Assembly (NCBI RefSeq): GCF_003574835.2
Contig: NZ_CP063196.1
Span: forward strand, 4,712,001-4,776,000
Reading direction: 5' to 3'
Length of the DNA stretch: 64,000 nt
Origin: Thermobifida halotolerans
Lineage (GTDB): Bacteria > Actinomycetota > Actinomycetes > Streptosporangiales > Streptosporangiaceae
The notes below the pieces were generated by a model. That model was given only the letters and a program-made list of their open reading frames with translations. It was not told the DNA's origin and ran no database searches. Position 1 is the stretch's first letter; each line of letters starts with the position of its first letter. Position numbers and translations under genes: made by a program. This document shows, one piece after another, positions 10,981 through 37,765 of the stretch.

Positions 10981-11114
10981 GGGCGCCTCGACCAGGCACG
11001 GCCAGCCCGTGGGAGCCCGCCCCGGGCGCCGGGGTGGAATGCCCCGCCTTCCCCCGGGTTCTCCGAGAAGAACCCGCACCCGCCGCAGAACCCGACACTC
11101 ACACCTCAGTCAGT
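10981..11114 (+). repeat. Dispersed structured element, copy A
   Basis: Begins GGGCGCCTCGACC, runs through a CACGG/CCGTG hairpin, a CCCCGG/CCGGGG hairpin, TGGAATGCC, and a GGGTTCT/AGAACCC hairpin. It ends CGCCGCAGAACCC...CACACCTCAGT. Two related copies lie at 37551-37630 (opposite orientation) and 37640-37765. The hairpins are kept while their sequences differ. Confidence 0.6.
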
Positions 11115-11174
11115 CACCCATGTCAGGGCCACCGCTGTTGGGGGCAGGGGGGACCTGGAACCGGATGAACGCCG

Positions 11175-11207
11175 AAGCCCCGGTGGAGAAACCCCGCCGG
11201 GGCTTTT
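11175..11207 (+). terminator. Intrinsic terminator reading rightwards
   Basis: AAGCCCCGG (11175-11183) pairs perfectly with CCGGGGCTT (11197-11205) and is followed by TT to give a TTTT run. It is the clearest U-tailed terminator of the window, yet no plus-strand gene precedes it. That implies an unannotated transcript from the region 10740-11175. Confidence 0.65.
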
Positions 11208-11508
11208 GCGCGGGTTCCTGAAGTTGGTCGACGCGGGGACCCTGCCCATCAGGGCGCACCACTCGGTGGAGTGGACTCCAGGCGGCCGGTGCGGCTGCCA
11301 CCTCGCCGGGCGGAAGCCCGCGAACCCCGGTGGTGTTCGATGTTCCTCCACCGACGGACAAGACAGAAGGACGTCCGTCACCACAGAGCCCGGCAACCGG
11401 TGGTGCGGGACCGCCCGGGAAGCGCGCGAAGGCGGAAGCGCGGGCGGATGCCGCGCCGGGGTGCCTCGGCCGCCCGCCGCCGATCCGACGGGACCGCCCG
11501 TGAATCGG

Positions 11509-11600
11509 AAAAGCGACGGCCCCCGCCAGGGGGGAGAGGCGGGGGCCGTCTCACGGTCCGGCTCCGGGGGGAAGAGCCGGTGCCGTATCCGGTGAGGTCA
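11509..11600 (-). ncRNA. 6C RNA (actinobacterial small RNA)
   Basis: On the minus strand two hairpins follow each other. The first is CCGGCTC/GAGCCGG (11580-11558) with CCCCCC in its loop. The second is a 13-bp perfect stem (11550-11515), again with CCCCCC in its loop, followed by GCTTTTCC as a terminator tail. Two hairpins with loops of six or more C's define the 6C family. Known members in Streptomyces (scr3559) and Mycobacterium (B11) sit at the same tad/ssd locus, so position supports the call. The exact 5' end is not visible; it is set near 11600. Confidence 0.82.
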
Positions 11601-12099
11601 GCTTCGGGACGGGGCCGGGGCGTCCGCCGCCACCGGGGGCGGGAGGGATTCCTCAACGCCCGGCCGAACCGGCCCTGTGAGTAATAGATGATATACACAA
11701 AGTTATCACGGTGCTTTGCTCGCTTGGTGAAAAAATGGTCTTCCGGGACCTTTCCAAGGCGCGCGGCGGGGCGTACAAAGGAAGCAGTCGATGGTGAAAC
11801 CCATCGGACACGCCAGCCGGGCACCCACGCGTCACCACGCCGCGAGCGGCCCGTCTAGGCCAGGCGCAACCTGGTCAGACTACAGATATCGCACGCATGT
11901 TAACCCGGTCTGACGTGTTTTGGGCGACGCTTTGAACAGTCCCCGCGCGGGAGTCCGGGCGTCGCCCGCTGCTGTGTGACCCGAACCACGGGAGCCACTC
12001 CGTAATCCCCCGGCGGAAACGGAGTCCGAGGTCGCCTTTCCACCAGCCGGTCCTGGGGGAGAATTCCACCTGAACGGCAGGGAAACGGATCGCTGCGGT

Positions 12100-12912
12100 T
12101 CAGGACCGCGACGATGCGCGCCGGATGGCCTCGCACGTGGCCAGGGAGTCGCGCGCCCCGTCCATGACCGCGCGGGCGCAGTGCGCCACCCAGCCGCCCA
12201 CCCCCTCGGGGGTCCCCGTCAGGTAGCCGCGCAGCGCGGAGACGTACTCCTCGCGCCGCTGTTCGTGGCCCAACTGGGTGGGGACCAGCGAGTTGGGGTC
12301 CAGCCCCCGTTCCAGCAGGGTCAGCCGTTCCGCGGCCCGCGCGACGATGCCGTCGCCCCACCCGAAGGGCCGCAGCGCCAGGAGTTCACCGTGCACGACC
12401 GCACTCACCACCAGGGCGGGGGCGTCGGTCCGAGCGGCCAGAAGAGCGGCGAGCGCCTCCAGGCGGACGGCGACCTCGGCCGAGTTCGGCGGCGCACCCA
12501 GCCCCAGGGGATCGGTCGCGCTCTCCCCCTCGCGTCGGGGCCGCCCCAGGTCCTCGGCGGCGACCGCGTCGGCCGCCGCCAGCATGTGCAGCCGCGCCAG
12601 CACCTGGCGCGGAGCCTTGGACCAGGTCTCCACGAGGAGCCCCAACTCCCCCGAGACCCGCAGCGCCCCCTTGACCCGGGGATCGTCGCTCTCCCCCGAA
12701 CGCACCTGTTCCAGGGCGGCGTCGGCCCCTTCGAGCACCGCCGAGGCGCGGGCGCCCCGCAGTGCGGCCTCCATCGAGACGTCGCTGCCGCGGCGGCGCA
12801 GCACCCGTTGTCCGATCAGCATGTCGACGAGGTCGCGTGCCTCCGTGACGGCTCGGGCGACCTCGGGAAGTTCGGCGATCCGCATCAGGGGATCGGTCGG
12901 CACAGCGTTCAC
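12100..12912 (-). CDS. Degenerate Fic-fold protein (actinobacterial conserved, Rv3662c-like)
   Basis: 270 residues from GTG 12912, seven bases after a TAGGGT -10, so possibly leaderless. Mostly helical. Near residues 190-210, VVHGELLALRPFGWGDGIVARA aligns with the Fic signature HPFxx(G/D)NGR, but the catalytic His is Arg and the final GR pair is altered. AMP transfer is therefore unlikely. Homologs sit beside ssd/tad loci in Streptomyces and mycobacteria, usually labelled oxidoreductase or hypothetical. No specific function can be assigned. Confidence 0.7.
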   Translation of the reverse strand: MNAVPTDPLMRIAELPEVARAVTEARDLVDMLIGQRVLRRRGSDVSMEAALRGARASAVLEGADAALEQVRSGESDDPRVKGALRVSGELGLLVETWSKAPRQVLARLHMLAAADAVAAEDLGRPRREGESATDPLGLGAPPNSAEVAVRLEALAALLAARTDAPALVVSAVVHGELLALRPFGWGDGIVARAAERLTLLERGLDPNSLVPTQLGHEQRREEYVSALRGYLTGTPEGVGGWVAHCARAVMDGARDSLATCEAIRRASSRS

Positions 12913-13102
12913 GTTACGAACCCTACGTCTGGGTAGTGGACAAGTGCACAACCGGGGGCGCCCCCGACCTCGACGGCCCGCCGGACCCCCTCGGCGGCAT
13001 TGCGTGGGACACACGCGCGTCGCACCGACGGCGCCTGGGAACCGTCCGGAAGGAACTGTGCGAGGATGCCCAGAAATAGGTCCGATGGAAGGAGCCGCCT
13101 CG

Positions 13103-13537
13103 GTGTCCGAAACCAACACGGGTGGCCGGGAACCGGTGGACGTCGACGCTTCCGGACGTTCACTGGGCGAACTCACCTCCGAGGTGACCGGTAACCTCAG
13201 CCAACTGGTGAGCCTGCAACTCGAACTCGCCCGGACGGAACTCGCCGCGGATGCCCGCAGGGTCGCCCTGGGGACCGGGATGTTCGTGGTCGCCGCACTG
13301 ATCGCGCACCTGATCCTCATCCTGGCCTCCATCACGATCGCCCTCGGGCTGGCCGCGATGGGGCTGTCCGGGTGGCTGGCCTTCCTGATCGTCACCCTCT
13401 TCTACACGCTTGTCGCGGTTCTTCTCGGCTTCCTCGGGTTCCGCGTCTACAAGAAGATCGAACGCCTGCCGCGCACCAAGGAGACCTGGGCCAGGACCAA
13501 GGCCGTGCTGCGCCGCGAACGCGCCGCCGGACTGTGA
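13103..13537 (+). CDS. Phage-holin-like membrane protein (DUF1469 / actinobacterial holin-X type)
   Basis: 144 residues from GTG 13103 with GGAAGGAG 8 nt upstream (ATG 13085 overlaps that SD). An amphipathic N-terminal region ELTSEVTGNLSQLVSLQLEL is followed by two long membrane helices (about 55-80 and 88-112) and a basic tail. This is the pattern of the DUF1469 group, common single genes in actinobacteria and not evidence of a prophage. It probably forms an operon with the hydrolase 18 bp downstream. Confidence 0.75.
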   Translation: MSETNTGGREPVDVDASGRSLGELTSEVTGNLSQLVSLQLELARTELAADARRVALGTGMFVVAALIAHLILILASITIALGLAAMGLSGWLAFLIVTLFYTLVAVLLGFLGFRVYKKIERLPRTKETWARTKAVLRRERAAGL

Positions 13538-13555
13538 CCGGTCGAGGCGGTGGCG

Positions 13556-14470
13556 ATGCCCGATGAGTCGGCGGTCCTGATCGACGGCCCGTGGACCCAC
13601 CGGACGGTCAGCGCCGGCGGAATCCGGTTGCACGTGGTGGAGGCCGGCGAGGGGCCGCTGGTTCTGCTGCTGCACGGTTTCCCGCAGTTCTGGTGGGCCT
13701 GGGAACGGCAGATCACGGCGCTGGCCGAGGCCGGTTACCGTGCGGTCGCGGTGGATCTGCGCGGCTACGGCGCCAGCGACAAGCCGCCCCGGGGCTACGA
13801 CCTGTTCACGATGGCGTCCGACGTCGCCGGTCTGGTCCGGGTTCTGGGCGCACCCGACGCGGCCGTGGCCGGTCACGGTGTGGGGGGCCTGGTCGGATGG
13901 ACGATGAGCGTCTGCCATCCCCGGACGGTCCGCCGACTGGCGGTGCTGTCGGCGCCGCACCCGGTGCGGCTGGCCGCGGCGGTGCCGCGGAGCTGGCACC
14001 AGGGGTGGGCGGTGCGGCACCTGCTCGGCTTCCAGGTGCCGGTGCTGCCCGAACGCCGCCTGGTGGCCGACGGCGCCGAAGCCGTGGGGCGCATGCTGCG
14101 CCGCTGGTCGCGTCCCGGCTGGCCGGACGCGGAGACCGAGTGGCGGTTCCGTGAGGCCTTCCGTATCCCTCTGGTGGCGCACTGCTCACTGGAGTGCTAC
14201 CGGTGGCTGTTCCGTTCCCGCTTCCGCCCGGACGGCTATCGTTATCTGCGTCGCATGAGTGTGCCCGGCACCGTTCCCACGCTGTACGTGCACGGCGCTT
14301 CGGACCCGCTCGTCCCGCCCGCGACGGCGCGCGGCACGGAGCGGTACGTGTCGGCGCCCTATCGGCTGCGAACGGTGGAACGCGCGGGGCACTTTCCCCA
14401 CCAGGAACGTCCCGACCAGGTCAACTCACTGCTTGTGGAGTGGTTCTCCTATGACGAACCGGACGCGTGA
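13556..14470 (+). CDS. Alpha/beta-hydrolase, epoxide-hydrolase (EphE) like, nucleophile replaced by Gly
   Basis: 304 residues from ATG 13556 (GAGG 8 nt upstream; GTG 13550 is alternative). The oxyanion motif HGFPQFWW, the late Asp (HGASDPLVPP) and the catalytic His (AGHFPHQE) are present. The nucleophile elbow, normally GHDWGG, reads GHGVGG, so residue 108 is Gly. MarP loci of mycobacteria carry EphE, which fits the general neighbourhood. It may bind rather than hydrolyse a ligand, or the group may have a different activity. Its 3' end overlaps the DUF309 gene by 20 bp. Confidence 0.78.
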   Translation: MPDESAVLIDGPWTHRTVSAGGIRLHVVEAGEGPLVLLLHGFPQFWWAWERQITALAEAGYRAVAVDLRGYGASDKPPRGYDLFTMASDVAGLVRVLGAPDAAVAGHGVGGLVGWTMSVCHPRTVRRLAVLSAPHPVRLAAAVPRSWHQGWAVRHLLGFQVPVLPERRLVADGAEAVGRMLRRWSRPGWPDAETEWRFREAFRIPLVAHCSLECYRWLFRSRFRPDGYRYLRRMSVPGTVPTLYVHGASDPLVPPATARGTERYVSAPYRLRTVERAGHFPHQERPDQVNSLLVEWFSYDEPDA

Positions 14471-14951
14471 CCCCCGCGACCGCGGCGCCGACGGTCGAGC
14501 CCAGAACCAGCGTCCCCGGGACCGCTACGGACGTCCCCTGCCGTACGGGACGCCGGGGGTGCCCCGTGTGCCCGACGACGCGGTGTTCACTCCCGCAGAG
14601 GGGTTGGCCGAGGCCCAGCGGCTGCTGGAGGAGGGGTACGCCTTCCACGCCCACGAGGTGCTGGAGGCGGTGTGGAAGGCGTCGGAGGCGTCCGAACGGG
14701 AACTGTGGCGCGGTCTGGCCCAGGTCGCCGTGGGGCTGACGCACGCCCAGCGCGGCAACGCGGTGGGCGCGGTCCGGTTGCTGCGCAGAGGCGCCGAGCG
14801 GGTCGCCGGATACGGCCCCGACGCTCCACACGGGGTGGACGCCGCGGGAGTGGCCGCGTACGGACGGGCCGCGGCCGACCGGGTCGAGGCGGGGCAGGCG
14901 GACCGGGTCGACCCCGCCGGGCTGCGGCTCACCCGCGCCCAGTCTGTGTGA
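14451..14951 (+). CDS. DUF309 family protein
   Basis: 166 residues from ATG 14451, overlapping the end of the hydrolase gene, so coupled. After a basic, low-complexity N-terminus (about 45 residues), the core has FHAHEVLEAVWK and a second helix with GLAQVAVGLTHAQRGN, the signature of DUF309, a helical fold of unknown function. The HE and W residues of the motif are intact. Confidence 0.78.
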   Translation: MTNRTRDPRDRGADGRAQNQRPRDRYGRPLPYGTPGVPRVPDDAVFTPAEGLAEAQRLLEEGYAFHAHEVLEAVWKASEASERELWRGLAQVAVGLTHAQRGNAVGAVRLLRRGAERVAGYGPDAPHGVDAAGVAAYGRAAADRVEAGQADRVDPAGLRLTRAQSV

Positions 14952-15434
14952 CGGGTCACACCGCGGCGAAAGGCATCCTGTCGCGGATGCGGTCCTGGTT
15001 GGGTGGAGCGGACGTCTGACTCCTGACCGGCTTCGGCCGACGCCATCCGGACGCCTGCTGTGTCACACGATGTGGAAACTGATTTCCGTGTGACTTGTGC
15101 ACCCTTCATCACGTTTTGTCCCTGATTTTCACAGAATGTGAAGAAAACGGCATTCCTCCTGATTTCGGAGGGTGTGCCGTATTTCTTGTCTCGACGCAGG
15201 GTCACATATCCCGGGGATTTCTCGAAAAGCTTCTTTGGGCCCTCACATTTTCGGGTAACGATGCGTAGACTCCCGGCACATCGAATCCGTTAACACGGCG
15301 GAAACGATGCGTTTTTTCCTGATCAGTGGTGGCACCGGCAAGACCCCGCCTGACGCGCTCCCGGGCGAACCGTCCGGACCGACCCGGACGGCAGCACGCT
15401 CACGCGGGGCCCTGCCCGTCTGGAGGAGGACGGA
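14952..15434. other. AT-richer leader/promoter region of the pyrophosphatase gene
   Basis: 483 bp without a gene. It holds short dyads: TGTGAC-GG-GTCACA across the DUF309 stop (14947-14960), and TCACA-GAA-TGTGA in the stretch near 15130. A possible -10, TAGACT (15266-15271), would give a leader of about 155 nt. Base composition is clearly lower in GC than the flanking genes. I see no known riboswitch. Confidence 0.45.
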
Positions 15435-17810
15435 TTGACCGGGCTCAACCTCGCCGTGGAAAGCGGCACAGGGCTCGCTCTGCACGGTATGGATCTCACA
15501 CTCGTCATTGTGGTCCTGGCGGTGGCGCTGCTCGCGCTGGCCGTCGCCGGAGCACTGGTGCGCGAGGTCCTCTCCGCGAACCAGGGCACAGAGCGAATGC
15601 AAAATATCGCAAGAGCCGTCCAGGAGGGGGCGGCGGCCTACCTCAAACGCCAGTTCCGCACCCTGGGTGTCTTCGTCGTCGTCATTCCCCTGCTGCTTCT
15701 CCTGCTCCCGGCGGACTCGGAGGCCGTCCGCTGGGGGCGTTCGCTCTTCTTCGCGGTCGGCGCGCTCTTCTCCGCGATGACCGGCTTCCTGGGCATGTGG
15801 CTGGCCGTGCGCGGCAACCTGCGGGTGGCGGCGGCAGCGCGCGCGGGGGCGGAGCACACGGCCATGCGGATCGCCTTCCGCACCGGTGGGGTGGCCGGAA
15901 TGTTCACCGTCGGCCTCGGTCTGCTCGGAGCGGCGGTCGTGGTCCTGCTCTACCGTGAGAGCGCCCCCCTGGTCCTGGAGGGCTTCGGCTTCGGCGCGGC
16001 GCTGCTGGCGATGTTCATGCGGGTCGGCGGCGGAATCTTCACCAAGGCCGCCGACGTCGGTGCCGACCTGGTGGGCAAGGTCGAACAGCACATCCCCGAG
16101 GACGACCCCCGCAACGCCGCGACCATCGCCGACAACGTGGGCGACAACGTCGGGGACTGCGCCGGAATGGCCGCCGACCTGTTCGAGTCCTACGCGGTGG
16201 TCCTGGTCGCCTCCCTCATCCTGGGGCGGGTCGCCTTCGGCGTCGAAGGACTGGTCTTCCCGCTGCTGGTACCGATGATCGGTGTCATCACCGCGATCAT
16301 CGGCATCTTCGTGGTGGCCCCCCGCGCCCGCGACAAGAACGCCATGGCGGCGATCAACCGCGGCTTCTTCGTCTCGTCGGTCATCTCCGCCGTCCTCGTG
16401 GTGGGCGCGGCCCTGCTGTACCTGCCCGCCACCTTCGCCGAACTGGAGGGCGTCTCCCCCGACATCGCCGCACTGGACGGCAACCCCCGGCTCATCGCGA
16501 TCGGCGCGGTCCTGATCGGCCTGCTGCTCGCCGCGGCGATCCAACTGCTCACCGGATACTTCACCGAGACCACCCGCCGCCCGGTCCGCGAGATCGGGGA
16601 GAGCTCCCGGACCGGCGCGGCCACCGTCGTCCTGTCGGGCGTCTCGGTGGGACTGGAGTCGGCCGTCTACTCCGCGCTGCTCATCGCGGGAGCCGTCTAC
16701 GCGGCCTTCCTGCTCGGCGCGGGCAACATCACCATCAGCCTGTTCGCGGTGGCGCTGGCCGGAACCGGACTGCTCACCACGGTCGGGGTGATCGTGGCCA
16801 TGGACACCTTCGGCCCGGTCGCGGACAACGCCCAGGGCATCGCCGAGATGTCGGGAGACGTGCAGGGCACCGGAGCCGACGTGCTGACCAGCCTGGACGC
16901 GGTCGGAAACACCACCAAGGCGATCACCAAGGGCATCGCGATCGCCACCGCGGTGCTCGCCGCGACCGCGCTGTTCGGCGCGTTCCGCACCGCCGTCGAA
17001 CTCGAACTGGGGGCCGAGGAGTTCAGTCTCTCCGTCGACCGGCCCGACGTCCTGGTCGGCGTGATCGTCGGCGCGGCCGTGGTGTTCCTGTTCTCCGGGC
17101 TCGCCATCATGGCGGTGGGCCGCGCCGCGGGCCGGGTCGTCCACGAGGTCCGCGAGCAGTTCCGAACCCGTCCGGGAATCATGGACGGCACCGAGAAGCC
17201 CGAGTACGGCCGGGTCGTCGACATCTGCACCCGCGACTCGCTGCGGGAGCTCATCACCCCCGGCCTGCTCGCGGTACTCACGCCCATCGCGGTCGGCTTC
17301 GCCCTCGGCTACGCCCCGCTGGGCGCGTTCCTGGGCGGCGCCATCGCCGCGGGTGCGCTCATGGCGGTGTTCCTCGCCAACTCCGGTGGCGCCTGGGACA
17401 ACGCCAAGAAACTCGTCGAGGAGGGCCACCACGGCGGCAAGGGGTCGGAGGCCCACGAGGCCACCATCATCGGCGACACCGTCGGCGACCCCTTCAAGGA
17501 CACCGCCGGACCGGCCATCAACCCGCTGCTCAAGGTGATGAACCTGGTCGCCCTGCTCATCGCGCCGAGTGTGGTCATCTACGCGGACAACCTCGCCCTG
17601 CGGATCGGTGTCACCGCCGTCGCGGTGGCCGTCGTCGTCGCCGCCATCGTGTGGGGCAAGCGGCGCGGCACGGACGGCACCTCCCCCGAGGGGACGGCCG
17701 AGGAGCGGAAGGGAGCCCTGGACCCCGGACAGAACACTCCGGCCGGGGCGGGGACGGACACCTCGGAACGGGCGCCGGTCGGTCAGGGCGGAAGCAACAC
17801 CAAGGAGTGA
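15435..17810 (+). CDS. hppA: Membrane-bound proton-pumping pyrophosphatase
   Basis: 791 residues with about 16 membrane helices. TTG 15435 start, GGAGGAGGA just upstream; ATG 15489 is the alternative. The PPi site DVGADLVGKVE and the repeated DNVGDNVGDCAGMAADLFE acidic motif are intact, as is the late GDTVGDPFKDT. The key subtype residue is Lys in GNTTKA, which marks the K+-independent, H+-pumping class. It couples PPi hydrolysis to proton export across the cytoplasmic membrane. Followed by a charged tail of about 50 residues that is longer than usual. Confidence 0.95.
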   Translation: MTGLNLAVESGTGLALHGMDLTLVIVVLAVALLALAVAGALVREVLSANQGTERMQNIARAVQEGAAAYLKRQFRTLGVFVVVIPLLLLLLPADSEAVRWGRSLFFAVGALFSAMTGFLGMWLAVRGNLRVAAAARAGAEHTAMRIAFRTGGVAGMFTVGLGLLGAAVVVLLYRESAPLVLEGFGFGAALLAMFMRVGGGIFTKAADVGADLVGKVEQHIPEDDPRNAATIADNVGDNVGDCAGMAADLFESYAVVLVASLILGRVAFGVEGLVFPLLVPMIGVITAIIGIFVVAPRARDKNAMAAINRGFFVSSVISAVLVVGAALLYLPATFAELEGVSPDIAALDGNPRLIAIGAVLIGLLLAAAIQLLTGYFTETTRRPVREIGESSRTGAATVVLSGVSVGLESAVYSALLIAGAVYAAFLLGAGNITISLFAVALAGTGLLTTVGVIVAMDTFGPVADNAQGIAEMSGDVQGTGADVLTSLDAVGNTTKAITKGIAIATAVLAATALFGAFRTAVELELGAEEFSLSVDRPDVLVGVIVGAAVVFLFSGLAIMAVGRAAGRVVHEVREQFRTRPGIMDGTEKPEYGRVVDICTRDSLRELITPGLLAVLTPIAVGFALGYAPLGAFLGGAIAAGALMAVFLANSGGAWDNAKKLVEEGHHGGKGSEAHEATIIGDTVGDPFKDTAGPAINPLLKVMNLVALLIAPSVVIYADNLALRIGVTAVAVAVVVAAIVWGKRRGTDGTSPEGTAEERKGALDPGQNTPAGAGTDTSERAPVGQGGSNTKE

Positions 17811-17951
17811 CCGGGGACTGACCTCCGCCACCCGATGACCCGTCGCGCCGGGAAGCACGCGGCTCCCCTTCCCGGCGCGACGCTCCTCCCCCACCACGGT
17901 GATCTCCGGGTCCAACTGGGACCGGCACCCGACACGTGGCAGACTTTCCGC

Positions 17952-18044
17952 ATGACCGGTATGAGAGGGCTCGCCATCATCGTCGGCGTGATGCTGGCGT
18001 TCATCGCCCTGCTGACCGTCGTGGCAACGGTGGCCTCGTCATGA
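17952..18044 (+). CDS. Small single-helix membrane peptide, coupled to sixA
   Basis: 30 residues: MTGMRGLAI then one hydrophobic helix to the end. ATG 17952 lies exactly 6 nt after CAGACT, a leaderless arrangement seen at several genes here. Its TGA overlaps the ATG of the next gene (ATGA), so translation is probably coupled. It is either a real small membrane protein or a leader ORF setting sixA translation. I know no family for it. Confidence 0.5.
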   Translation: MTGMRGLAIIVGVMLAFIALLTVVATVASS

Positions 18045-18514
18045 GTCGGCGGTTGATCGTGCTGCGGCACGCCCAGGCGGAGCACTCCGCGTCCCTGTCC
18101 GACATCGAGCGTCCGCTCAGCGGTGAGGGCCGCGGCCAGGCCAGGGCGGTCGGTGCGCTGCTGGCCCGCGAGGGACTCCTCCCCGAGCACGTCCTCTGCT
18201 CCACGGCGCAGCGCACCCGGCAGACCTGGGGCCTGGTCGCCGAGGAGCTGCCCTGCGAACCGGAGGTGGACTTCGAGGCGGAGCTGTACACCGCCGACGT
18301 GGACACCGCGCTGCGGCTGGTCACCCTGGTCGACCCGGAGGTGCGCACGCTGCTGCTGGTCGGCCACAACCCGACGATGGCACAGCTCGCCGCGGCGTTC
18401 GACAGCGACTCCGGGTACCTGTCCTTCCCACCGGCGTCGGCCGCCGTGATCGACCTGGAGGTCGACTGGCTCTACGCCGCCCCCGGAACGGGAAGCCTCA
18501 GGCTGCTGAACTGA
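18041..18514 (+). CDS. sixA: Histidine phosphatase, SixA type
   Basis: 157 residues. The phosphatase motif LRHAQAE (His of the RHG family) is near the N-terminus, and the second catalytic His is in LLLVGHNPTM. The short length and the RHA variant place it with SixA-like enzymes, which remove phosphate from protein histidines. The target here is unknown. The start is fixed by the ATGA overlap with the small ORF. Confidence 0.85.
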   Translation: MSRRLIVLRHAQAEHSASLSDIERPLSGEGRGQARAVGALLAREGLLPEHVLCSTAQRTRQTWGLVAEELPCEPEVDFEAELYTADVDTALRLVTLVDPEVRTLLLVGHNPTMAQLAAAFDSDSGYLSFPPASAAVIDLEVDWLYAAPGTGSLRLLN

Positions 18515-18565
18515 CCGTGGCCGGTGCGCGCCGCGGTCGCCCCGTGGCGCGCCGGTCGGCCGGGG

Positions 18566-19795: not shown

Positions 19796-20053
19796 GACGG
19801 CTCTACGGTACTCCGCCGCGCGGTGGTGGAGTAGACCAGGCCACCGAACCTTTCTGCACCGTCAATGCCCTGTTCATCGGCTTGGGAAGCCTCAGACAGC
19901 GGTGAATCTGTGGCCTATGTCACCTCCCCGGTGAGGGGGAGTCGCCGTTCCCCGAAGCCTCCTGGATCCAGCGGTTCTCTCCGCTCACCCTTTCGGTCGG
20001 CGCCGCGGCGACGGGGGACAGGGCCGCCAGGTGGGCCCGAGCGGAGGAAGCCG

Positions 20054-20677: not shown

Positions 20678-20705
20678 GTGCGGTTCCTCGATTCCGGATG
20701 TGGGG

Positions 20706-26380: not shown

Positions 26381-26402
26381 CCCCGACCGGGGACGGTGCC
26401 GT

Positions 26403-28320: not shown

Positions 28321-28592
28321 GGCCTCTATGATGCCTTTCTTAATTCGTTTGGTTCCGTACTATTCAGACTCCAAGGTGTGGACGGTCCGTTTCATGGGAT
28401 TTGGCCACTTGTGGCCGGGGTGAACGCCGGAGCCCGCGGGAACTCCGCAGTCCGGATACCTCAAAGGGGCTGTCCCGATCGTCGGAGAGCGGAGATGGGG
28501 CCCGACGGTTCCGGGACGTGTGGGAGCACCCGCCGACCGCGCGGTGGGAATTCGGCGGGACCGGTCAGCGGCCCTTTCGGTAACGTCAACGC

Positions 28593-29633: not shown

Positions 29634-29639
29634 GAAGGC

Positions 29640-29676
29640 GCGGGCCCCGGAGGCGTCGGTCGCTTCCGGGGCCCGC
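29640..29676. terminator. Bidirectional terminator between add and the CapA gene
   Basis: Perfect 12-bp stem GCGGGCCCCGGA (29640-29651) with its complement (29665-29676), 13-nt loop, no T-run. It lies 4 bp after the add stop and 22 bp before the end of the convergent CapA gene. Confidence 0.75.
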
Positions 29677-29697
29677 GGTGTCGGCCGTGCGGGCGGG

Positions 29698-30840
29698 TCA
29701 GACGGCCGGTTCGCCCGGCTCGGCGGTCAGATTGGTCCCGCCGCACTGCTCCCGGTAGCCCTCGAAGCTCGCCACTCCCTGGGAGACGGCGGACTCGTCC
29801 TCGTGCAGGATCGGGATGCCGCCCTGGATCTGGCCGGGCAGCCACTCGTCGTCGAGGATCTTGTCACCCTGGAGGGTGAGCCGCAGCACACCCGTCTCGG
29901 CGGTGGGGCCGCTGAAGTTGTAGAAGACGAAGTTGCCGAGTCCGTAGTGCACGTAGGCGTCGCCCATGTAGCCACCGGGGCTGACCACGTGCGCGTGCCC
30001 GCCCACCACGGCGGTGGCTCCCGCGTCGATGAGCTGCTGGGCGAGCCCGGGGGCGTGCGGCAGCGGGCAGTGGTCGCCCTCCAGGCCCCAGTGCAGGAAC
30101 ACGATGACGGCGTCGGCCCGGGAGCCGGCGTCCTCGACGGCCTGGATGGCGTGGGTGAGCATCTCGCCCTTGGTGGAGGCCAGACCCGGCTTGCCCTCGC
30201 CCGCGGTCCACTCGGAGATCAGGTGGTCGTCCAGCACGTCGGTGGCGCCGATGATGGCCAGGGTGTTCCCGTTGACCTCGAAGAACTCGGGTTCGTAGGC
30301 CTCGCTGAGGTCCCGTCCCGCCCCGATCACCGGGAAGTCCGCGGCCTCGGCGTTGTCGAGGGTGTCGATCAGGCCGTCGGTGCCGTAGTCCATGCCGTGG
30401 TTGTTGGCCACGGTCGCCACGTCGACGCCGGCCGACTCCAGTGCGGTGAAGGCCGTGGCGGGGGCGCGGAAGACGAACTGCTTGCCCGGTGCGGGGGTGC
30501 CGCCGTCGGTGACGGCGGTCTCCAGGTTGACCACGCTGACGTCAGCCTCCTGGAAGACCTCGGAGACCGGTCCCAGGGCGGTGGCCGGGTCGGAGTCCAG
30601 GCGCTGCCGGAGCATCCCCTCGAACATGACGTCACCGCCGATGGCGACGGTGTACGGCTCCTGGGAGGGCTCGGGAGAGGCGGACGGCGTGGGCTCCGCG
30701 GCATCGGGTGGGTCCGCGGCGGCTGCGGGGGCCTCGTCGCCCGAACCGCAGGCTGTGGCGAGCAGAGCCGTGGCCAGCAGCAGCGAGCCGAGGCGGAGCG
30801 GACGACCGTAGGGGCGTGGCGTCTGGGAAAGCGGGGTCAC
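29698..30840 (-). CDS. CapA-family (PGA capsule synthesis-like) lipoprotein
   Basis: 380 residues from GTG 30840, AGGAGA upstream. Signal peptide with lipobox LLATAC (Cys31) followed by an Ala/Pro/Glu linker. Then the metallophosphatase-like CapA fold: IGGDVMFEG, VNLETAVTD, ATVANNHGMDYG and GGHAHVVSP. It should be an outer-face lipoprotein. Related proteins occur in poly-gamma-glutamate capsule loci, but no capB/capC is nearby, so the role is unknown. Confidence 0.85.
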   Translation of the reverse strand: MTPLSQTPRPYGRPLRLGSLLLATALLATACGSGDEAPAAAADPPDAAEPTPSASPEPSQEPYTVAIGGDVMFEGMLRQRLDSDPATALGPVSEVFQEADVSVVNLETAVTDGGTPAPGKQFVFRAPATAFTALESAGVDVATVANNHGMDYGTDGLIDTLDNAEAADFPVIGAGRDLSEAYEPEFFEVNGNTLAIIGATDVLDDHLISEWTAGEGKPGLASTKGEMLTHAIQAVEDAGSRADAVIVFLHWGLEGDHCPLPHAPGLAQQLIDAGATAVVGGHAHVVSPGGYMGDAYVHYGLGNFVFYNFSGPTAETGVLRLTLQGDKILDDEWLPGQIQGGIPILHEDESAVSQGVASFEGYREQCGGTNLTAEPGEPAV

Positions 30841-31100
30841 ACGTATCTCCTGAGAAGCGGATTCGGCCGGTACTGGTAGGACGCGAGAGAGCGGTCCCCC
30901 GTTGTGGACGGGCCGACCGATGAACTTGATTTGTTACGAATGTCGGATTTGACGTCATCGAAACAGACCAGAATCACTACCTTGGGTGATGGTAGTGTGA
31001 CGCGGAGTCCGGGATCGGGAACTGGGGGAGCGGGAACAACGTTACGTCCGCGGTCCCGCGGAAACGGGGGCGGGGGGTTTAACTGGACATACTCATTTTC

Positions 31101-31135
31101 TTGAACAACTCCAGATAGTGGCCTAGGGTGAAGCC
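31101..31135 (+). promoter_or_regulatory. fur promoter, leaderless
   Basis: TTGAAC (31101-31106), a 17-nt spacer and TAGGGT (31124-31129), then 6 nt and the ATG. This is the best -35/-10 pair of the window and puts the transcription start at the start codon. The AT-rich ACTCATTTTC just before and over the -35 is a likely autoregulatory Fur box. Confidence 0.7.
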
Positions 31136-31558
31136 ATGGACGACGTCGCTGCCCTCCGCGCGGCCGGGCTGCGGGTGACCGCCTCCCGCCTGGCGATACT
31201 CGACGCGGTCCGTCAGGGAGACCACCTGGACGCCGACCGTGTGGCGCGTGCTGTCCGGGGCCGGGTCGGACACGTGTCGACCCAGGCGGTCTACGACAGC
31301 CTGCACGCCCTCACCGCCGCCGGACTGCTTCGTCGCATCGAACCCGCGGGTTCCCCCGCCCGGTACGAGACCCGCGTGGGGGACAACCACCACCACCTGG
31401 TCTGCCGCGACTGCGGTGAGGTGACCGACATCGACTGCGTGGTCGGGGAGGCCCCGTGTCTGCTGCCCTCGCAGACGCACGGCTACGCCCTCGACGAGGC
31501 AGAGGTGGTGTTCTGGGGGATCTGCCCCACGTGCCAGGCGGGGGAGCGGACTCGATGA
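31136..31558 (+). CDS. furA: Fur-family regulator (FurA/CatR type)
   Basis: 140 residues. N-terminal winged helix with HVSTQAVYDSLHALTAAGLLRR, the metal site DNHHHLVCRDCGEVTDIDC and a second Cys pair ICPTCQ (structural zinc). It sits 113 bp upstream of the catalase gene. In actinobacteria fur-kat pairs of this kind encode a peroxide-sensing repressor that controls itself and the catalase. The exact metal (Fe or Mn) cannot be read from sequence. Confidence 0.88.
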   Translation: MDDVAALRAAGLRVTASRLAILDAVRQGDHLDADRVARAVRGRVGHVSTQAVYDSLHALTAAGLLRRIEPAGSPARYETRVGDNHHHLVCRDCGEVTDIDCVVGEAPCLLPSQTHGYALDEAEVVFWGICPTCQAGERTR

Positions 31559-31671
31559 CCTGACCCTCCGGGCCTGTCCCGCACGGTGTGCGGCCCGGGG
31601 CCTCTCCATGGACGTCGGTTGACCCGACATCACCGTTTCCGAGGCTGAGCCTTAGCAGAAAGGTATGAGCA

Positions 31672-33120
31672 TTGGTCGCTTACAGCACCGATGACGCCGG
31701 TATCCCGGCCCCGCACGACGGCCTCTCGCAGTCGGTCGGCCCCAACGGCCCCCTGCTGCTCCAGGACCACTTCCTGATCCAGAAGATGGCCCACTTCAAC
31801 CGTGAGCGCGTGCCCGAGCGCGTGGTGCACGCCAAGGGCGGCGGAGCCTTCGGTGAGCTGGAGATCACCGAGGACGTCAGCCAGTACACGCGGGCCGACC
31901 TGTTCCAGAAGGGCAGGAAGACCCCGCTGCTCCTCCGCTTCTCGACCGTCGCCGGCGAGCTGGGCAGCGCCGACACCGCTCGCGACCCGCGCGGCTTCGC
32001 CCTGAAGTTCTACACCGAGCAGGGCAACTACGACATCGTCGGCAACAACACGCCGATCTTCTTCATCCGGGATCCCTCGAAGTTCTCCGACTTCATCCAC
32101 TCGCAGAAGCGGCGCGCCGACAACCAGCTGCGCGACAACAACATGCAGTGGGACTTCTGGACGCTCAACCCCGAGTCGGCGCACCAGGTCTCCTTCCTGA
32201 TGACCGACCGCGGCACCCCGAAGACCTGGCGCCACATGCACGGCTTCGGCAGCCACACCTTCATGTGGTACAACGCCAACGGTGAGAAGTTCTGGGTGAA
32301 GTACCACTTCAAGACCGAGCAGGGCATCGAGAACCTGACCGCCGCCGAGGCCAAGGCGATGGAGGCCGAGGACCCCGACGCGCACCGCCGTGACCTGTGG
32401 GAGAGCATCAAGAGGGGTGACTACCCCGCCTGGACGGTCAACGTCCAGATCATGCCCTTCGAGGAGGCCGCCGACTACCGGTTCAACCCGTTCGACCTCA
32501 CCAAGGTGTGGCCGCACAGCGACTACCCGGAGATCACCATCGGCCGGTTCGTCCTCAACCGGAACCCGGAGAACTACTTCGCCGAGATCGAGCAGGCGGC
32601 GTTCGAGCCCTCCAACCTGGTTCCGGGTGTGGCCGGCAGCCCCGACAAGATGCTGCAGGGGCGGCTGTTCTCCTACCCGGACACCCACCGCTACCGGATC
32701 GGTCCCAACTACCTGCAGTTGCCGGTCAACCGGCCGAAGTCGCCGGTCCGCAGCTACAACTACGACGGGCCGATGGCGTACTACAACAACCCCGACCCGG
32801 TGTACGCGCCGAACACCGCGGGCGGCCCCGAGGCCCAGCCCGACCTGTTCAAGGGCGAGGAGTACCACGTGGCGGGTGAGATCGTCCGCTCCGCCTACAC
32901 CCTCCACAAGGAGGACGACGACTTCGGCCAGGCGCGCACGCTGTGGGAGAAGGTCCTCTCCGACACCGACCGCGCCAACATGGTGGACAACATCGTCGGC
33001 CACGCCTCGGCGCCCGAGGTCACCGACGACATGAAGAAGCGCGTCGTCGAGTACTGGACCAACATCCACCCGGACCTGGGCGGCGGCGTCGCCAAGGGAC
33101 TGGGAGTCCAGCAGGCCTAG
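31672..33120 (+). CDS. katA: Catalase (monofunctional haem, small-subunit clade)
   Basis: 482 residues. Catalytic His in RVVHAKGGGAFG, Asn in GNNTPIFFIRD, and the proximal haem Tyr in RLFSYPDTHRYRIG. TTG 31672 is taken as the start. An ATG 7 nt upstream (31665) opens a different frame that ends after 9 codons, so initiation may be indirect. AAAGG lies 9 nt before the TTG. A candidate TTGACC-N16-GAGGCT promoter is at 31619-31646. Probably controlled by the adjacent FurA. Confidence 0.93.
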   Translation: MVAYSTDDAGIPAPHDGLSQSVGPNGPLLLQDHFLIQKMAHFNRERVPERVVHAKGGGAFGELEITEDVSQYTRADLFQKGRKTPLLLRFSTVAGELGSADTARDPRGFALKFYTEQGNYDIVGNNTPIFFIRDPSKFSDFIHSQKRRADNQLRDNNMQWDFWTLNPESAHQVSFLMTDRGTPKTWRHMHGFGSHTFMWYNANGEKFWVKYHFKTEQGIENLTAAEAKAMEAEDPDAHRRDLWESIKRGDYPAWTVNVQIMPFEEAADYRFNPFDLTKVWPHSDYPEITIGRFVLNRNPENYFAEIEQAAFEPSNLVPGVAGSPDKMLQGRLFSYPDTHRYRIGPNYLQLPVNRPKSPVRSYNYDGPMAYYNNPDPVYAPNTAGGPEAQPDLFKGEEYHVAGEIVRSAYTLHKEDDDFGQARTLWEKVLSDTDRANMVDNIVGHASAPEVTDDMKKRVVEYWTNIHPDLGGGVAKGLGVQQA

Positions 33121-33668
33121 CCGTCCCCGCCGGAGCGCGGTGACGCGCTCCGGCCGCGACGAGCCCCGGTCGAGGACCCTTCGCGGGTACCCGGCCGGGG
33201 CTTCGCCGTCTCCGGGCGGCGGACCGCGGCAGTGGCGGTCCGCCGCCTTCCGCATTCGGTACGGACAATTGCGCGCACACCGCTCCCCGGACCCGCGACA
33301 ACGAATTTGCTTAGTAATTCGCCGGAGAGATATGTGCTGCTTGGGGGGGTTTCCGGCGCTGTGGCAGTGTCTGCGAAGGTGGATCGGTAGGAAATTTGAC
33401 CAACAGACCCGTGAGTTTTGTGGAAGCTCTTGCAGAAAGTCTCGCGGAAAGCCGAGAAGCTGCTAACGTTACGGTCGGTCAGCGATCTGGAGCGGACCGT
33501 CGCTCTTTTTGGTTGGTCCGCCGTCAACCGGTTGGATCGCCCCCGTCGCTGTAGACAACATTCAAGCTTTGGATGTCGGGCCGTGGTTCACCGATCCCGC
33601 TCACGGTGACTCTTTGTGCTCAGTCATTCTCACTGGGTAGTGCAGTTAGCGAAAGGTCATACCGGAAC
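33121..33668. other. Long upstream region of the chaplin-like gene
   Basis: 548 bp with no gene. After the katA terminator it becomes AT-richer from about 33290 and holds short repeats and a GCGGACC/GGTCCGC hairpin near 33495-33520 with a T-rich loop. A long untranslated or operator-rich region is common before developmentally regulated genes, but no known motif is recognised. Confidence 0.45.
33129..33154 (+). terminator. Terminator after katA
   Basis: GCCGGAGCGCG pairs perfectly with CGCGCTCCGGC around a GTGA loop, 9 bp after the katA stop. No T-run, as usual in this window. Confidence 0.7.
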
Positions 33669-34484
33669 ATGCGTAAGACAATGCTCGCCACCGCCTCAAC
33701 CGCCGTGCTCACGGCCGGTCTGGTGGCCGGGTTCGCCTCCCCTGCCTTCGCGGGTCAGACGGTCAGCGGCAACCAGATCAACATTCCGGTGGATGTCGCC
33801 GTCGACGTCTGCGGCAACGCCATCTCGGTCGTCGGGGAGGCCAGGGCCCAGTGCACGGTGATCGTCGACGCGCTCCAGGAGGCCTCCGAGGACGGCGAGG
33901 GCGGCGAGACGACCGCGGAGGGCGGTGACAGCGTCGCCAGCGGCAACCGGATCAACATTCCGGTGGATGTCGCCGTCGACGTCTGCGGCAACGCCATCTC
34001 GGTCGTCGGGGAGGCCAGGGCCCAGTGCACGGAGGTCGCCGAGGCGCTCCAGGAGGCCTCCGAGGGCGGCGAGAGCGGCGAGAGCGGCGAGACGGCCGCG
34101 GAGGAGACCGGTGGCTCCAACGCCTCCGGGAACGACGACGTCCTCAGTGACAACGAGGTCAACGCCCCCGTGAACGCCGATGTCGACGTCTGCGGCAACT
34201 CGGTCGCCGTCCTGGGCTCCGCCGAGGCCGACTGCGAGGAGACCGCCCAGGCGGAGGAGCCCACCGGGGTCGAAGAAGGCGCCGAGACTCCCCAGGAGTC
34301 GGGGACCGCCGAGGAGCCCGCCGACGACAAGCCCGCTCAGGAGACCAGGGAGGTGGCGACCGACGAGACCCTGCCGGTGACCGGCGCCGCTCTCGGCGGT
34401 CTGGTCGCCGCCGCGGTCGCGGCCCTCGGCGGCGGCGGCGCGGCCATGTACCTCTCCCGCAGGAAGAAGGCGACCGAGGACTGA
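33669..34484 (+). CDS. Chaplin-like cell-wall protein, three modules, LPXTG sorting signal
   Basis: 271 residues from ATG 33669. Signal peptide ending SPAFA, then three chaplin-like modules. The first two carry VDVCGNAISVVGEARAQC, and the third is the diverged VDVCGNSVAVLG...C. Each has the two Cys of chaplins. Glu/Gly-rich acidic spacers separate them. The C-terminus has LPVTG, a hydrophobic helix and RRKK, a sortase signal. Chaplins coat aerial hyphae with amyloid and long ones are wall-anchored. Modules 1 and 2 are near-identical at DNA level (83 bp exact, 174-bp period). Confidence 0.87.
   Translation: MRKTMLATASTAVLTAGLVAGFASPAFAGQTVSGNQINIPVDVAVDVCGNAISVVGEARAQCTVIVDALQEASEDGEGGETTAEGGDSVASGNRINIPVDVAVDVCGNAISVVGEARAQCTEVAEALQEASEGGESGESGETAAEETGGSNASGNDDVLSDNEVNAPVNADVDVCGNSVAVLGSAEADCEETAQAEEPTGVEEGAETPQESGTAEEPADDKPAQETREVATDETLPVTGAALGGLVAAAVAALGGGGAAMYLSRRKKATED
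33776..34032 (+). repeat. Tandem 174-bp repeat inside the chaplin gene
   Basis: 33776-33858 and 33950-34032 are identical over 83 bp with an offset of 174 bp (58 codons). GCGCTCCAGGAGGCCTCCGAG also repeats. The identity at synonymous positions indicates recent duplication or gene conversion of a chaplin module. Confidence 0.85.
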
Positions 34485-34509
34485 GGCAGACCTCCTCCGT
34501 CATCCGTGT

Positions 34510-34541
34510 CCGTGCCCCCGGCCGATCGGCCGGGGGCACGG
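34510..34541 (+). terminator. Terminator after the chaplin gene
   Basis: CCGTGCCCCCGGCC (34510-34523) pairs perfectly with its complement (34528-34541) around GATC, followed by AGTTGTTC. Confidence 0.75.
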
Positions 34542-34673
34542 AGTTGTTCATGCGAGGGCGGAGAGTAACCAGTCAGAAGCAAACCGAAATCTGGCATTTT
34601 TTCGTGATCTGGGACACAATTCCTCTGCTGGAATGGGAAAGTCGGGGGGCTTCTTACCGGGAGAAGAACGCAT

Positions 34674-36686
34674 ATGAGCGCGCCGACAGGCCCTACCGAC
34701 CGTGGATTTCTCCCCGCGCTGACGATCGGGGGCGGACTCTGGCTCCTCCTCGACGTACTCCGGGTGTGGCTTCCGTCGCTGATCACGGTCTTCGGTCAGG
34801 CCGGGACGACGCCGCCGCAGGCCGTCGGACTCTTCGCGCTCGGCTGGTTCCTGGCGCCCCTGCCCGTCCTGTTCCTGCGCTCCCTGCTCGCGGGCGGCGC
34901 GGCCGAGGACACGGAGGACCGGATTCCCCGCCTGCCGCTGGACGTGTGGTTCGCGATCGCGCTGGGCGGAGTGCGTCTGCTGCTCCAGGCCGCCGGCGGG
35001 GAGCAACTCCAGTTGTACGCGGCCTCCGCCGGGGTCCTCATCGGACTCGCCTGGCTGGCCACGGTCGCGGCACGGGCCCGGCGCTCCCTGCTGCGCGGAT
35101 TCGCGCTCGGCCTCGCCCTGTCCACGCTCACCCACGCGGCACTCGGCACCTACGCGGCGGTGTGGCGGCCGGGGATGCTCGGCTGGGGGATCGTGGGCGC
35201 CCAGGTCGCCCTGTTCTGGTGGACGCTGACCAGGACACCGCGCCTCACCCGGCGGGACTTCGACGGGCAGGCCGCCGACCCGGTGCTGTGCTTCCTGTTG
35301 CTCCCCGCACTGCTGATCGCCGGCGTGCTCACGGCCTCGCCCGCGCGCGCCGAGGCCGCCGTCGGCTGGCCCGACGGCTGGGCCGCGGTGGTCGTCGCGG
35401 TGGCGGTCGCGATGGGATACGTCCTCTCGGGCGCGTCCGCGACCCCCGGACGCACGCCGATCGTTCCCGGAACGGCACTGGTCGCCGCGGTCGCGGTGGC
35501 CGCCTTCGGCACCGTCGAGGACGGAGGCGTTCCCGGACTGCCGCCCTTCTTCGCGGTCATCGCCCAGGCCGTGGGCGCACTGGCCCTCATCGCCTGCCTG
35601 GCCTGGGCCGACTGGCCCGGATCGCGGGGACGGGCGCCCCGGCCCGGCCGCGCCGGTCCGGCCGTGCTTCTCGGCGGCCTGGTGTTCCTGGGGGGCCTCT
35701 TCGGCTACTACGCGGGCTACGACCTGGGCTACCGCGCCGATGCCGTCCTGGTTGCCGTGGCGGTGCTGATCACCGCGACGGCGGCCGTGCACGGCCGCCG
35801 CAAGGACCGCGACTCGGGCAGCCGGGTGCGTCACCCGGCCGTCCACCGCTGGCCGGGCGCGGTGGTCGCGGCCGCCGGGACGGCGGCCGCCGTGTTCCTC
35901 CTGCCGTTCGTGACGGTGCCCGCGGCCGCCACGCCGTTCCCCGCCGCGGCCGCGGGAGGCGCCGACGAGGAACTGCGGGTGGTGGCCTACAACCTGCGGA
36001 TGGGCTACGACACGGCCGGCACCTACGACATCGAGGGAGTGGCCACGGCGATCCAGCGGGTCGACCCCGACGTGGTGCTGCTGAGCGAGGTGGACCGCGG
36101 GTGGTTCCTCAACGGAGGACAGGACGTGCTGGGCGTGCTGTCCGACGCGCTCGACATGGAGGCCGTGTTCGCGCCCGCCGCCGACCAGGTCTGGGGGGAC
36201 GCCGTGCTGACCCGGCTGCCGATCGTGGAGACCGTCGGCCACCGGTTGCGCTCCTACGGCGCCCCGATCGGCGCGCAGGCGCTGTCCGTGGTGGTCGAGC
36301 ACGAGGACACCGAGATCGAGGTGATCTCCACCCACCTGCAACCGCCCGCCGACAGGGAACCGACCATGCAGGCCGCGGACCTGGCCGACATCGTCATCGA
36401 GCGTGCCGGACTCGGGCGGCCGATCGTCGTGGGCGGCGACCTCAACTTCGCGCCGAACGGCGCCGCCTGGCGGGAGATGGAACGCGCCGGGCTCTACGAC
36501 GCGCTGTTCCGGATCCGTCCCGCCCCCACCTTCCCCGCGGACAGGCCGGAGCTGGAGATCGACCACATCCTCACCACCGAGGGGCTCGTCCGGGAACAGG
36601 CCGCCGCGCTTCCCGTGACGCACTCCGACCACCTTCCCGTCATGGCCGTGCTGCGGCTGGACCGGCCCACGGTGTACGGAACCTGA
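34674..36686 (+). CDS. Multi-spanning membrane protein with C-terminal endonuclease/exonuclease/phosphatase domain
   Basis: 670 residues. About eleven hydrophobic helices over residues 15-430, then an extracytoplasmic EEP domain: VVAYNLRMG, LLSEVDRGW, ISTHLQP, VGGDLNFAPN and THSDHLPVMAVL. Metal Glu, His and Asp residues are in place. Similar fusions in actinobacteria are of unknown substrate; the architecture suggests a lipid- or glycolipid-directed phosphodiesterase, which is inference. GGGAGAAG precedes the ATG. Confidence 0.8.
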   Translation: MSAPTGPTDRGFLPALTIGGGLWLLLDVLRVWLPSLITVFGQAGTTPPQAVGLFALGWFLAPLPVLFLRSLLAGGAAEDTEDRIPRLPLDVWFAIALGGVRLLLQAAGGEQLQLYAASAGVLIGLAWLATVAARARRSLLRGFALGLALSTLTHAALGTYAAVWRPGMLGWGIVGAQVALFWWTLTRTPRLTRRDFDGQAADPVLCFLLLPALLIAGVLTASPARAEAAVGWPDGWAAVVVAVAVAMGYVLSGASATPGRTPIVPGTALVAAVAVAAFGTVEDGGVPGLPPFFAVIAQAVGALALIACLAWADWPGSRGRAPRPGRAGPAVLLGGLVFLGGLFGYYAGYDLGYRADAVLVAVAVLITATAAVHGRRKDRDSGSRVRHPAVHRWPGAVVAAAGTAAAVFLLPFVTVPAAATPFPAAAAGGADEELRVVAYNLRMGYDTAGTYDIEGVATAIQRVDPDVVLLSEVDRGWFLNGGQDVLGVLSDALDMEAVFAPAADQVWGDAVLTRLPIVETVGHRLRSYGAPIGAQALSVVVEHEDTEIEVISTHLQPPADREPTMQAADLADIVIERAGLGRPIVVGGDLNFAPNGAAWREMERAGLYDALFRIRPAPTFPADRPELEIDHILTTEGLVREQAAALPVTHSDHLPVMAVLRLDRPTVYGT

Positions 36687-36736
36687 CCACCGTCGTCGGA
36701 GAGCCGGGTCGGTGCGAGCGGCGGCCGACGGTCCCA

Positions 36737-36749
36737 TAGCCTCGATATG
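36737..36749 (+). promoter_or_regulatory. -10 box of the first SURF1 gene, leaderless
   Basis: CATAGCCT with TAGCCT exactly 6 nt before the GTG start (36749). The second SURF1 gene has the same CATAGCCT-N6-GTG. No clear -35. Confidence 0.55.
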
Positions 36750-37552
36750 TGCTTCGTGTCCTGACCTCACCTCGGATGTTGGCGTTCCACGCACTGCTGC
36801 TCGTGGTGGTGCCCTCGTTCATCGCCCTGGGCCTCTGGCAGTACGAGCGGGCGCAGGCCAAGGCCGCCGTGGTCGAGTTGCAGGAGACCAATCTCGCCGG
36901 CGACCCGGTTCCTCTCGACGAGCTGACCGCGGTCGGCGAGGAGGTGACCCGGCAGGACCGCTGGCGGCAGGTCACCGTCACCGGAACCTACGACTCCGAC
37001 CGGGAACTCCTCGTGCGAAACCGGGGCGGCTCCGGCGGGGTCGGCATGCACGTCCTCACGCCGCTGGTGACCGAGGACGGCACGGCGGTACTGGTCAACC
37101 GGGGGTGGGTGCGGCAGCCGCCCACCGCGGCCGGGCAGCCCGAGGTGCCGCCCCCCGCCGAGGGGAGGGTCACGGTGACCGGGCGGCTGCAGATCTCGGA
37201 GACCCCCGAGAACACCGGGATCCGTCCCCGGGACGGACTGCCCGAGGGACAGATCATGATCATCGACGTGGCCGCCATCGCCGAGGAGCTGCCCTACGAC
37301 CTCTACGGCGGGTACGTGGAACTGGTCGAGGAGGCCCCGGAACCGGCGGCGGCGCCCGAGCCGGTCGAGGTGGCCGAGGTCAACACGGGAATGAACTTCT
37401 CCTACGCGGTCCAGTGGTGGGCCTTCACCGCCATCGCGATCGGCGGATGGGTCTTCCTGGTCCGCCGTGAGGTCCAGGAGGCGGAGACCGGGGACACGCC
37501 CCCGGCCCCGGAGAACTCCGACACCACGCCCAGCCCCACCCCCGGGGCCTGA
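36749..37552 (+). CDS. SURF1-family cytochrome oxidase biogenesis protein (copy 1)
   Basis: 267 residues. N-terminal membrane helix ending FIALGLWQYERAQAK, the hallmark WQYERA, then VTVTGTYDS, VLVNRGWV, and a C-terminal helix with YAVQWWAFTAIAI. SURF1 proteins help insert haem a into cytochrome c oxidase at the membrane. GTG start without SD; see the promoter entry. The C-terminus has an added Pro/Thr/Glu tail. A paralog is at 55076-55921. Confidence 0.9.
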   Translation: MLRVLTSPRMLAFHALLLVVVPSFIALGLWQYERAQAKAAVVELQETNLAGDPVPLDELTAVGEEVTRQDRWRQVTVTGTYDSDRELLVRNRGGSGGVGMHVLTPLVTEDGTAVLVNRGWVRQPPTAAGQPEVPPPAEGRVTVTGRLQISETPENTGIRPRDGLPEGQIMIIDVAAIAEELPYDLYGGYVELVEEAPEPAAAPEPVEVAEVNTGMNFSYAVQWWAFTAIAIGGWVFLVRREVQEAETGDTPPAPENSDTTPSPTPGA

Positions 37553-37765
37553 CTGAGGTGTGGGTGTTGGGTTCTGCGGTGGGCGCGGGTCTTCGCGGAG
37601 ACCCCCGGGGTGGGTGAGGCATTCCACCCCGGCCGTCCGGGGCGCCTCGACCGGTCACCGGCAGCCGGTGGTATCTCGTTTCCGGGGGTTTTGTGGAATG
37701 CCTCGGCCTTGCCGGGGTGCGGCGAAACCGCATCCGCCGCGAACCCGGCCATCACACCTCGGTGA
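37551..37765. repeat. Dispersed structured element, copies B and C in inverted orientation
   Basis: Copy B reads on the minus strand from about 37630 to 37551 and ends across the SURF1 stop. Copy C reads on the plus strand 37640-37765. Both contain GTGGAATGCCT, a central hairpin (B: GGGTCT/AGACCC; C: GGTGCGG/CCGCATC with a G-U pair) and an ending like GAACCC...CACACCTC. Together they make an imperfect palindrome of about 215 bp. Confidence 0.6.

Follow-up and report, generated by a model that had tools for sequence, protein, structure and literature searches.

Passages in PMC3049150 and PMC2229807 describe the proposal that RUP, a repeat of Streptococcus pneumoniae, is moved by IS630-Spn1. 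The target duplication of published IS630 elements is TA and not 3 bp, as the work on ISY100 shows in the parts of PMC2170065 that deal with it, and a title in the reference list of that paper reports a preference of IS630 for TA within CTAG.

In the window, by which we mean the whole 64,000-nucleotide stretch of the Thermobifida halotolerans genome analysed here, we find one complete and one truncated element of a repeat family that can be compared with these systems (Table 1). It is very likely that the family consists of MITE-like, non-autonomous DNA transposons, probably moved in trans by the DDE_3 transposase of a resident insertion sequence (IS) with similar tips.

Elements of the window and their genome-wide family

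The original prediction described three copies of a dispersed structured element. The sequence sharing is real and far above chance, and the coordinates were nearly right, but the unit was mistaken, since what had been taken for copies are arms. Those placed at 37551-37630 (-) and 37640-37765 (+) together make up a single element, one arm each, with TGA duplications on both flanks. The remaining one contains a further B arm, which belongs to a second, truncated element whose core extends back to ~10824. A left arm of this second element is absent from the genome arm lists obtained with the A, B and C models.

Table 1. Features of the repeat family in the window (window positions) and loci of further arm types found next to the core
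Feature	Position or loci	Strand	Basis or remark
Target duplication TGA, left copy	37550-37552	+	This TGA is also where the SURF1-family gene 36776-37552 stops
Complete element 2, 210 bp	37553-37762	.	Left B arm, right A arm; arms by models R1 and R2; IS-end matrix tips 37553 (+) and 37762 (-); fold z -6.65
B arm of element 2	37553-37627	-	GTGGAATGCC at inner end
A arm of element 2	37693-37762	+	Arm reads and alignment
Target duplication TGA, right copy	37763-37765	+	Flank comparison
Truncated element 1	10824-11109	.	Inner core and right-hand B arm; core matches at genome 4722824-4722970 and 4722953-4723111
B arm of element 1	11034-11109	+	Tip CCTCAG, then TCAGTCA; top IS-end matrix score of the window
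Arm type D, seven loci	L013, L016, L021, L024, L027, L047, L053	n/a	Tips like TGCCGGGAAGTCRGGCGGGC, short palindromic, carry GTGGAATGCC
Arm type E	L017, L044, L045	n/a	Next to GTGGAATGCC
Arm type F	L029, L046	n/a	Next to GTGGAATGCC
Arm type G	L041, L056	n/a	Next to GTGGAATGCC

The core 10-mer GTGGAATGCC occurs 68 times in the 5.5-Mb genome, compared with 2 occurrences of its reversed control, and when all 68 core sites were read, many proved to belong to one of several types of outward-facing arm. The models rest on alignments of 35 B arms, 24 A arms and 11 C arms. Beforehand, 4 reads of type A, 3 of B and 2 of C had been discarded, some of them second reads of one arm, and one of these A reads was moved to C. 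Searches of the genome with the models (E <= 0.01) returned 93, 83 and 31 matches, including cross-hits between arm types. The final list was sorted by hand, leaving out the cross-hits and keeping weak hits, at least one of which (2927528) falls within a predicted gene and may be a chance match. It holds 124 arm calls, which form 73 clusters and yield 47 outward-facing pairs. The prediction of a dispersed palindromic repeat family is borne out at the scale of the genome, and further copies exist well beyond the window.

The clusters comprise 40 simple outward pairs (26 A/B and 14 C/B), 4 compound clusters and 29 single arms. The arms point outward in all 40 simple two-arm clusters, and in a typical complete copy the left arm is of type B and the right arm of type A or C. 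From outer arm end to outer arm end the simple pairs measure 116-416 bp, which is too short for a transposase gene; the elements are gene-less, as MITEs are, and our own simple gene finder, run on the element loci, served for the flanking genes only. The tips form terminal inverted repeats, also a MITE feature, with the consensus CTGAGGTKTGA / TCAMACCTCRG for A, B and C arms.

Several loci merit mention for their surroundings. Head-to-tail elements with common tip bases occur at L026 (1786-2281), L049 (1806-2366) and L062, an arrangement expected if the tip CTGAG itself serves as a target. At L107 (1853-2018) an element splits a gene that looks like the YoeB-type toxin of a toxin-antitoxin pair, and at L059 an element lies between a gene end and a region that resembles 5S rRNA. 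A CRISPR-like repeat, GTTGCTGCCCCTCGTAGGGGCGATGAGGAAC, is present more than once at close spacing near position 2065 of L040.

At other core sites, GTGGAATGCC is followed by different recurrent outer arms, including types D to G (Table 1). The inner core of L058 matches 7 of 16 such loci (L048, L017, L056, L041, L046, L029 and, weakly, L027) and misses the other 9; L027 is the sole D locus among the matches. At L017, L041, L056, L029 and L046 the likeness of the core is partial. These alignments firmly suggest a core common to some E, F and G members and weakly suggest one common to D, where the overlap may go little beyond the 10-mer. Ends of type D are present 14 times in the genome when up to 2 mismatches are allowed and 28 times with up to 3, compared with 5 for the reversed control at the latter setting. 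Tentatively, the repeats could be mosaic passengers, with one GTGGAATGCC-bounded core combined with arms A, B and C, also with E, F and G and perhaps with D, alongside an IS630-like lineage whose 3-bp stagger (TSA in CTSAG) would be one base longer than the TA in CTAG of classical IS630. More than one transposase may then act on such a core; we hold this broader picture to be possible but doubtful.

Target sites, empty sites and a candidate partner

We compared the bases outside each tip in the 47 pairs with those in 2000 shuffles. An exact 3-bp duplication, as expected of MITEs, is present in 27 of the 47 pairs (shuffled mean 11.5, maximum 23 in 2000). Other widths are near chance: widths 4-8 gave 0 of 47, and widths 1 and 2 gave 7 and 2, with shuffled means of 7.1 and 0.9. 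Among the 20 pairs lacking an exact duplication, 8 match at two of the three bases and 12 at fewer. The duplications are TGA (15), TCA (9) and ACA, AGA and CGA (one each), so that they are mostly TSA; they are preceded by C in 26 cases and followed by G in 26, and the joined target reads CTSAG in 22 of 27. The third duplicated base is A in 27 of 27, and a shorter duplication plus a fixed A would also fit the pair data taken alone. The evidence favours a width of 3 bp, since the three pairs with a first base other than T still match and the empty site at L019 holds the whole CTGAG.

Duplication of a TGA that serves as a stop codon restores the stop, so that the host gene keeps its reading frame. 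This is the situation of element 2, which lies behind a SURF1-family gene whose TGA stop is the duplicated target and whose frame is intact, and it demonstrates that insertion at a TGA stop can be harmless to the frame. A special mechanism for targeting stop codons, which we considered, is not needed: stop-codon sites make up 7 of the 27 duplicated pairs, about equal to the background of 5 among 20 non-coding CTSAG sites in the window (5 stops and 15 others, with our own simple gene finder).

Ten joined sites, from which the element had been removed, were searched in three sister genomes. The site at L019 is gaplessly empty in all three, with 84-90% identity over 273-278 bases, and there the sister genomes have a single TGA where this genome reads TGA-element-TGA. 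This is the one gapless case of the 10; a second site (L009) is crossed at the junction with 2 gaps in one genome. At L092, L116 and the window site the junction is crossed with 10-39 gaps or the alignment stops there, while alignments of L104, L022 and L064 end at or short of the junction. L059 has no match in the three sister genomes, and L067 has short left-side matches only, none of them across the junction. The 3-bp duplication together with the empty L019 site shows, at the level of sequence comparison, that the elements have transposed, and the family may have been active recently.

The B-arm model, the only one used for this purpose, gave no match at 1e-4 with stricter filters in 40 relatives (the 3 congeners and 37 further genomes). 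It therefore seems that the spread of the family in this lineage came after the three congeners had split off, or that they have lost it. One congener has mildly raised numbers of GTGGAATGCC (14 versus 2), but of the 22 congener sites 20 were read by eye, and none of these is this repeat. An exact pattern scan of the genome contig collection, from which the window's own genome records were perhaps left out, returned no match.

A search for 13-mers resembling the tips found three copies of TGAGGTTTGATTG, which led to an IS of ~1.1 kb. Its resident copies carry HTH_33/HTH_32 and DDE_3 domains, as expected of a partner, and the protein of the first frame has 8 matches at 6 places in the genome, one of them just 29% identical. 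The copy at 2225213 has TCA on both flanks, being the sole resident copy with a clean duplication, and its catalytic frame is interrupted by a stop following NPVE. In a copy found by protein search (C1:2266363), neither of the two overlapping frames is interrupted, and DDE_3 lies in the second; this copy is flanked by TGA at one end and TCA at the other. The ends of two other resident copies are altered or composite. Nocardiopsis algeriensis has relatives of the protein at two loci (85% and 56% identity), and one of these IS copies has the flanks TCA and TCT. At genome positions 1982482-1983835 (L032/L147), a complete element adjoins a decayed IS630-like copy, with the junction sequence CTCACTGAG common to both.

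The tips of the elements resemble those of this IS. When both strands of the 64-kb window were scanned with a 25-base matrix built from 8 IS ends, the top three positions were the element tips 11109 (-), 37553 (+) and 37762 (-), with scores of 19.5, 17.0 and 11.7, followed by 4.6 for the next position. The 47 pairs have 94 tips. All 29 A tips score above the best non-element position of the window, as do 41 of the 46 B tips and 12 of the 19 C tips; the other 5 B and 7 C tips do not exceed the background. This matrix is not fully independent, as 6 of its 8 ends come from the three IS first found through the tip-like 13-mer. With a control matrix from five ends of IS found by protein search, in which the tips were still placed by a fuzzy motif, the same three tips lead (14.7, 14.7 and 9.6; next 6.8). 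They also lead with three N. algeriensis ends alone (16.5, 16.5 and 13.1; next 8.6). When just the two ends of the 2266363 copy are used, the third tip scores 8.6, equal to a position outside the elements. Tips common to the element and an autonomous IS of the same genome, as MITEs have, are seen with both matrices. The TA target duplication typical of IS630/Tc1-mariner is not seen; in its place stands the 3-bp TSA.

Taken together, these features suggest that an element with such tips inserts at CTSAG and duplicates TSA, and that the IS630-like IS would supply the DDE_3 (IS630/Tc1-mariner-type) transposase, probably acting in trans. Where the target is a TGA stop, the host frame would be spared in the way described for element 2.

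Fold, covariation and rival explanations

The complete element (37551-37764) folds end to end (RNA z -6.65, DNA z -6.12). This strong fold follows from the inverted-repeat build and can be explained without selection on an RNA fold. Covariation had been proposed for a central hairpin, a claim that found no support: the hairpins compared belong to two arm types (GGGTTCT and GGGTCT to B, the third to A), and within a type the pairing does not exceed permutation. Native pairing is reached by 443 of 2000 permutations for the B-arm hairpin (33 of 35 arms parsed) and by 1528 of 2000 for the A-arm hairpin (22 of 24 parsed), and 0 of the 8 pairs in the A-arm helix change on both sides. RNAalifold consensus structures have 4 pairs for the 35 B arms, none with a double change, 12 pairs for the 24 A arms and 17 for the 11 C arms, with one double change in each of the latter two. 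Pairing of a B arm with the A or C arm of its own element is no better than with swapped arms (2871/5000 for 28 pairs and 4257/5000 for 18 pairs, one C-A pair being left out).

The 5' inner hairpin, also said to covary (CACGG/CCGTG versus CACCGG/CCGGTG), finds some support overall and in B, and none within A or C. Native pairing is reached by 0 of 5000 permutations with the 55 of 78 copies that could be parsed and by 11 of 5000 with 30 distinct copies; by type, the counts are 24/5000 for B and 5000/5000 for both A and C. At the position where the two versions differ, 22 of the 55 copies have no base pair. This signal is modest, and it is weakened by the relatedness of the copies, by the 23 of 78 left unparsed and by the apparent misregistration of a few B rows. 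Overall, the covariation test proposed with the original prediction was negative for the B and A arm hairpins and between arms, and modestly positive in one inner hairpin. Rfam at gathering thresholds has no match at the elements. The single match in the window is a 6C RNA (RF01066) at 11511-11587 (-), with 65.7 bits, ~400 bp beyond the point where element 1 ends.

A structured regulatory RNA or terminator family under fold selection would suit the strong folds (z -6.65 and -4.17), the position of some copies directly after genes and the modest inner-hairpin covariation. We nevertheless regard it as very unlikely, given that neither arm hairpin nor the pairing between arms of one element covaries beyond permutation, that Rfam is silent at the elements, that the B-arm model finds nothing in the congeners and further relatives, and that stop-codon sites are about as frequent as in the non-coding background. 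The other form of the original proposal, REP-like elements mobilised by a RAYT (a Y1 tyrosine transposase), appears extremely improbable. Although the repeats are palindromic, dispersed and often intergenic, and the genome has two Y1_Tnp (PF01797) genes, neither of these loci (~3.2 kb each) holds the core 10-mer or the tip motif (up to 2 mismatches), and the nearest listed arms lie tens of kilobases away. The elements, moreover, carry terminal inverted repeats. Y1 enzymes are not expected to leave 3-bp target duplications, and REPs are shorter than these elements. The inverted repeats, the duplications, the empty site and the IS630-like tips speak against both a REP-like element and a small-RNA family under fold selection.

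A further alternative keeps the same kind of mobile element and changes its enzyme: another transposase, for example of the IS5 type, may move the family, and the IS630-like tips would then reflect shared descent and not present use. IS5-type enzymes that make 3-bp duplications exist, such a duplication is unusual for IS630, and the IS630-like copies are few. Against this, those copies, including the ones found by protein search, have similar 25-bp tips, and one has the same kind of duplication. We consider a different enzyme unlikely and prefer MITE-like elements served by the resident IS630-like IS.

Comparison with described systems

The family appears to be a well-resolved set of MITEs for which a likely partner IS and an empty site are available, and its bacterial host genome is very G+C-rich. 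Its less usual features are a 3-bp duplication combined with IS630-like ends and a core common to other end types. If the 3-bp duplication is truly the work of an IS630-like enzyme, it would provide a natural variant with which to study how the stagger of Tc1/mariner-type transposases is set. Our literature search found no 3-bp IS630 duplication and no matching account of MITEs from the same or related genera, of MITEs at stop codons or of chimeric MITEs, which is no proof of absence.

Like REP/RAYT systems, the family consists of dispersed palindromes; it differs in its direct duplications and its greater length, and no Y1 transposase was found nearby. The likeness to BOX of S. pneumoniae, as presented in the passages of PMC3049150 on these repeats, lies in a modular build and in inverted repeats that resemble a resident IS; BOX, however, is assembled from boxA, boxB and boxC subsequences, whereas here the outer arms vary around a common core. 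With IS630 and ISY100 of the Tc1/mariner superfamily, going by the sections of the published work cited above, the candidate partner shares HTH and DDE_3 domains, and their CTAG is CTSAG without the S, but their target duplication is TA and here it is 3 bp. RUP, in the published passages on it, is likewise a high-copy gene-less repeat with terminal inverted repeats that resemble a resident IS630-family element, and trans-mobilisation has been proposed for it. It is 107 bp long with TA-containing insertion sites, whereas the present elements measure 116-416 bp with a 3-bp duplication at CTSAG, and are very G+C-rich and two-armed, with arm types that differ. RUP and IS630-Spn1 are the closest pair that we met in these sources, and by analogy the present family would behave like a RUP-type passenger, except for its 3-bp duplication.
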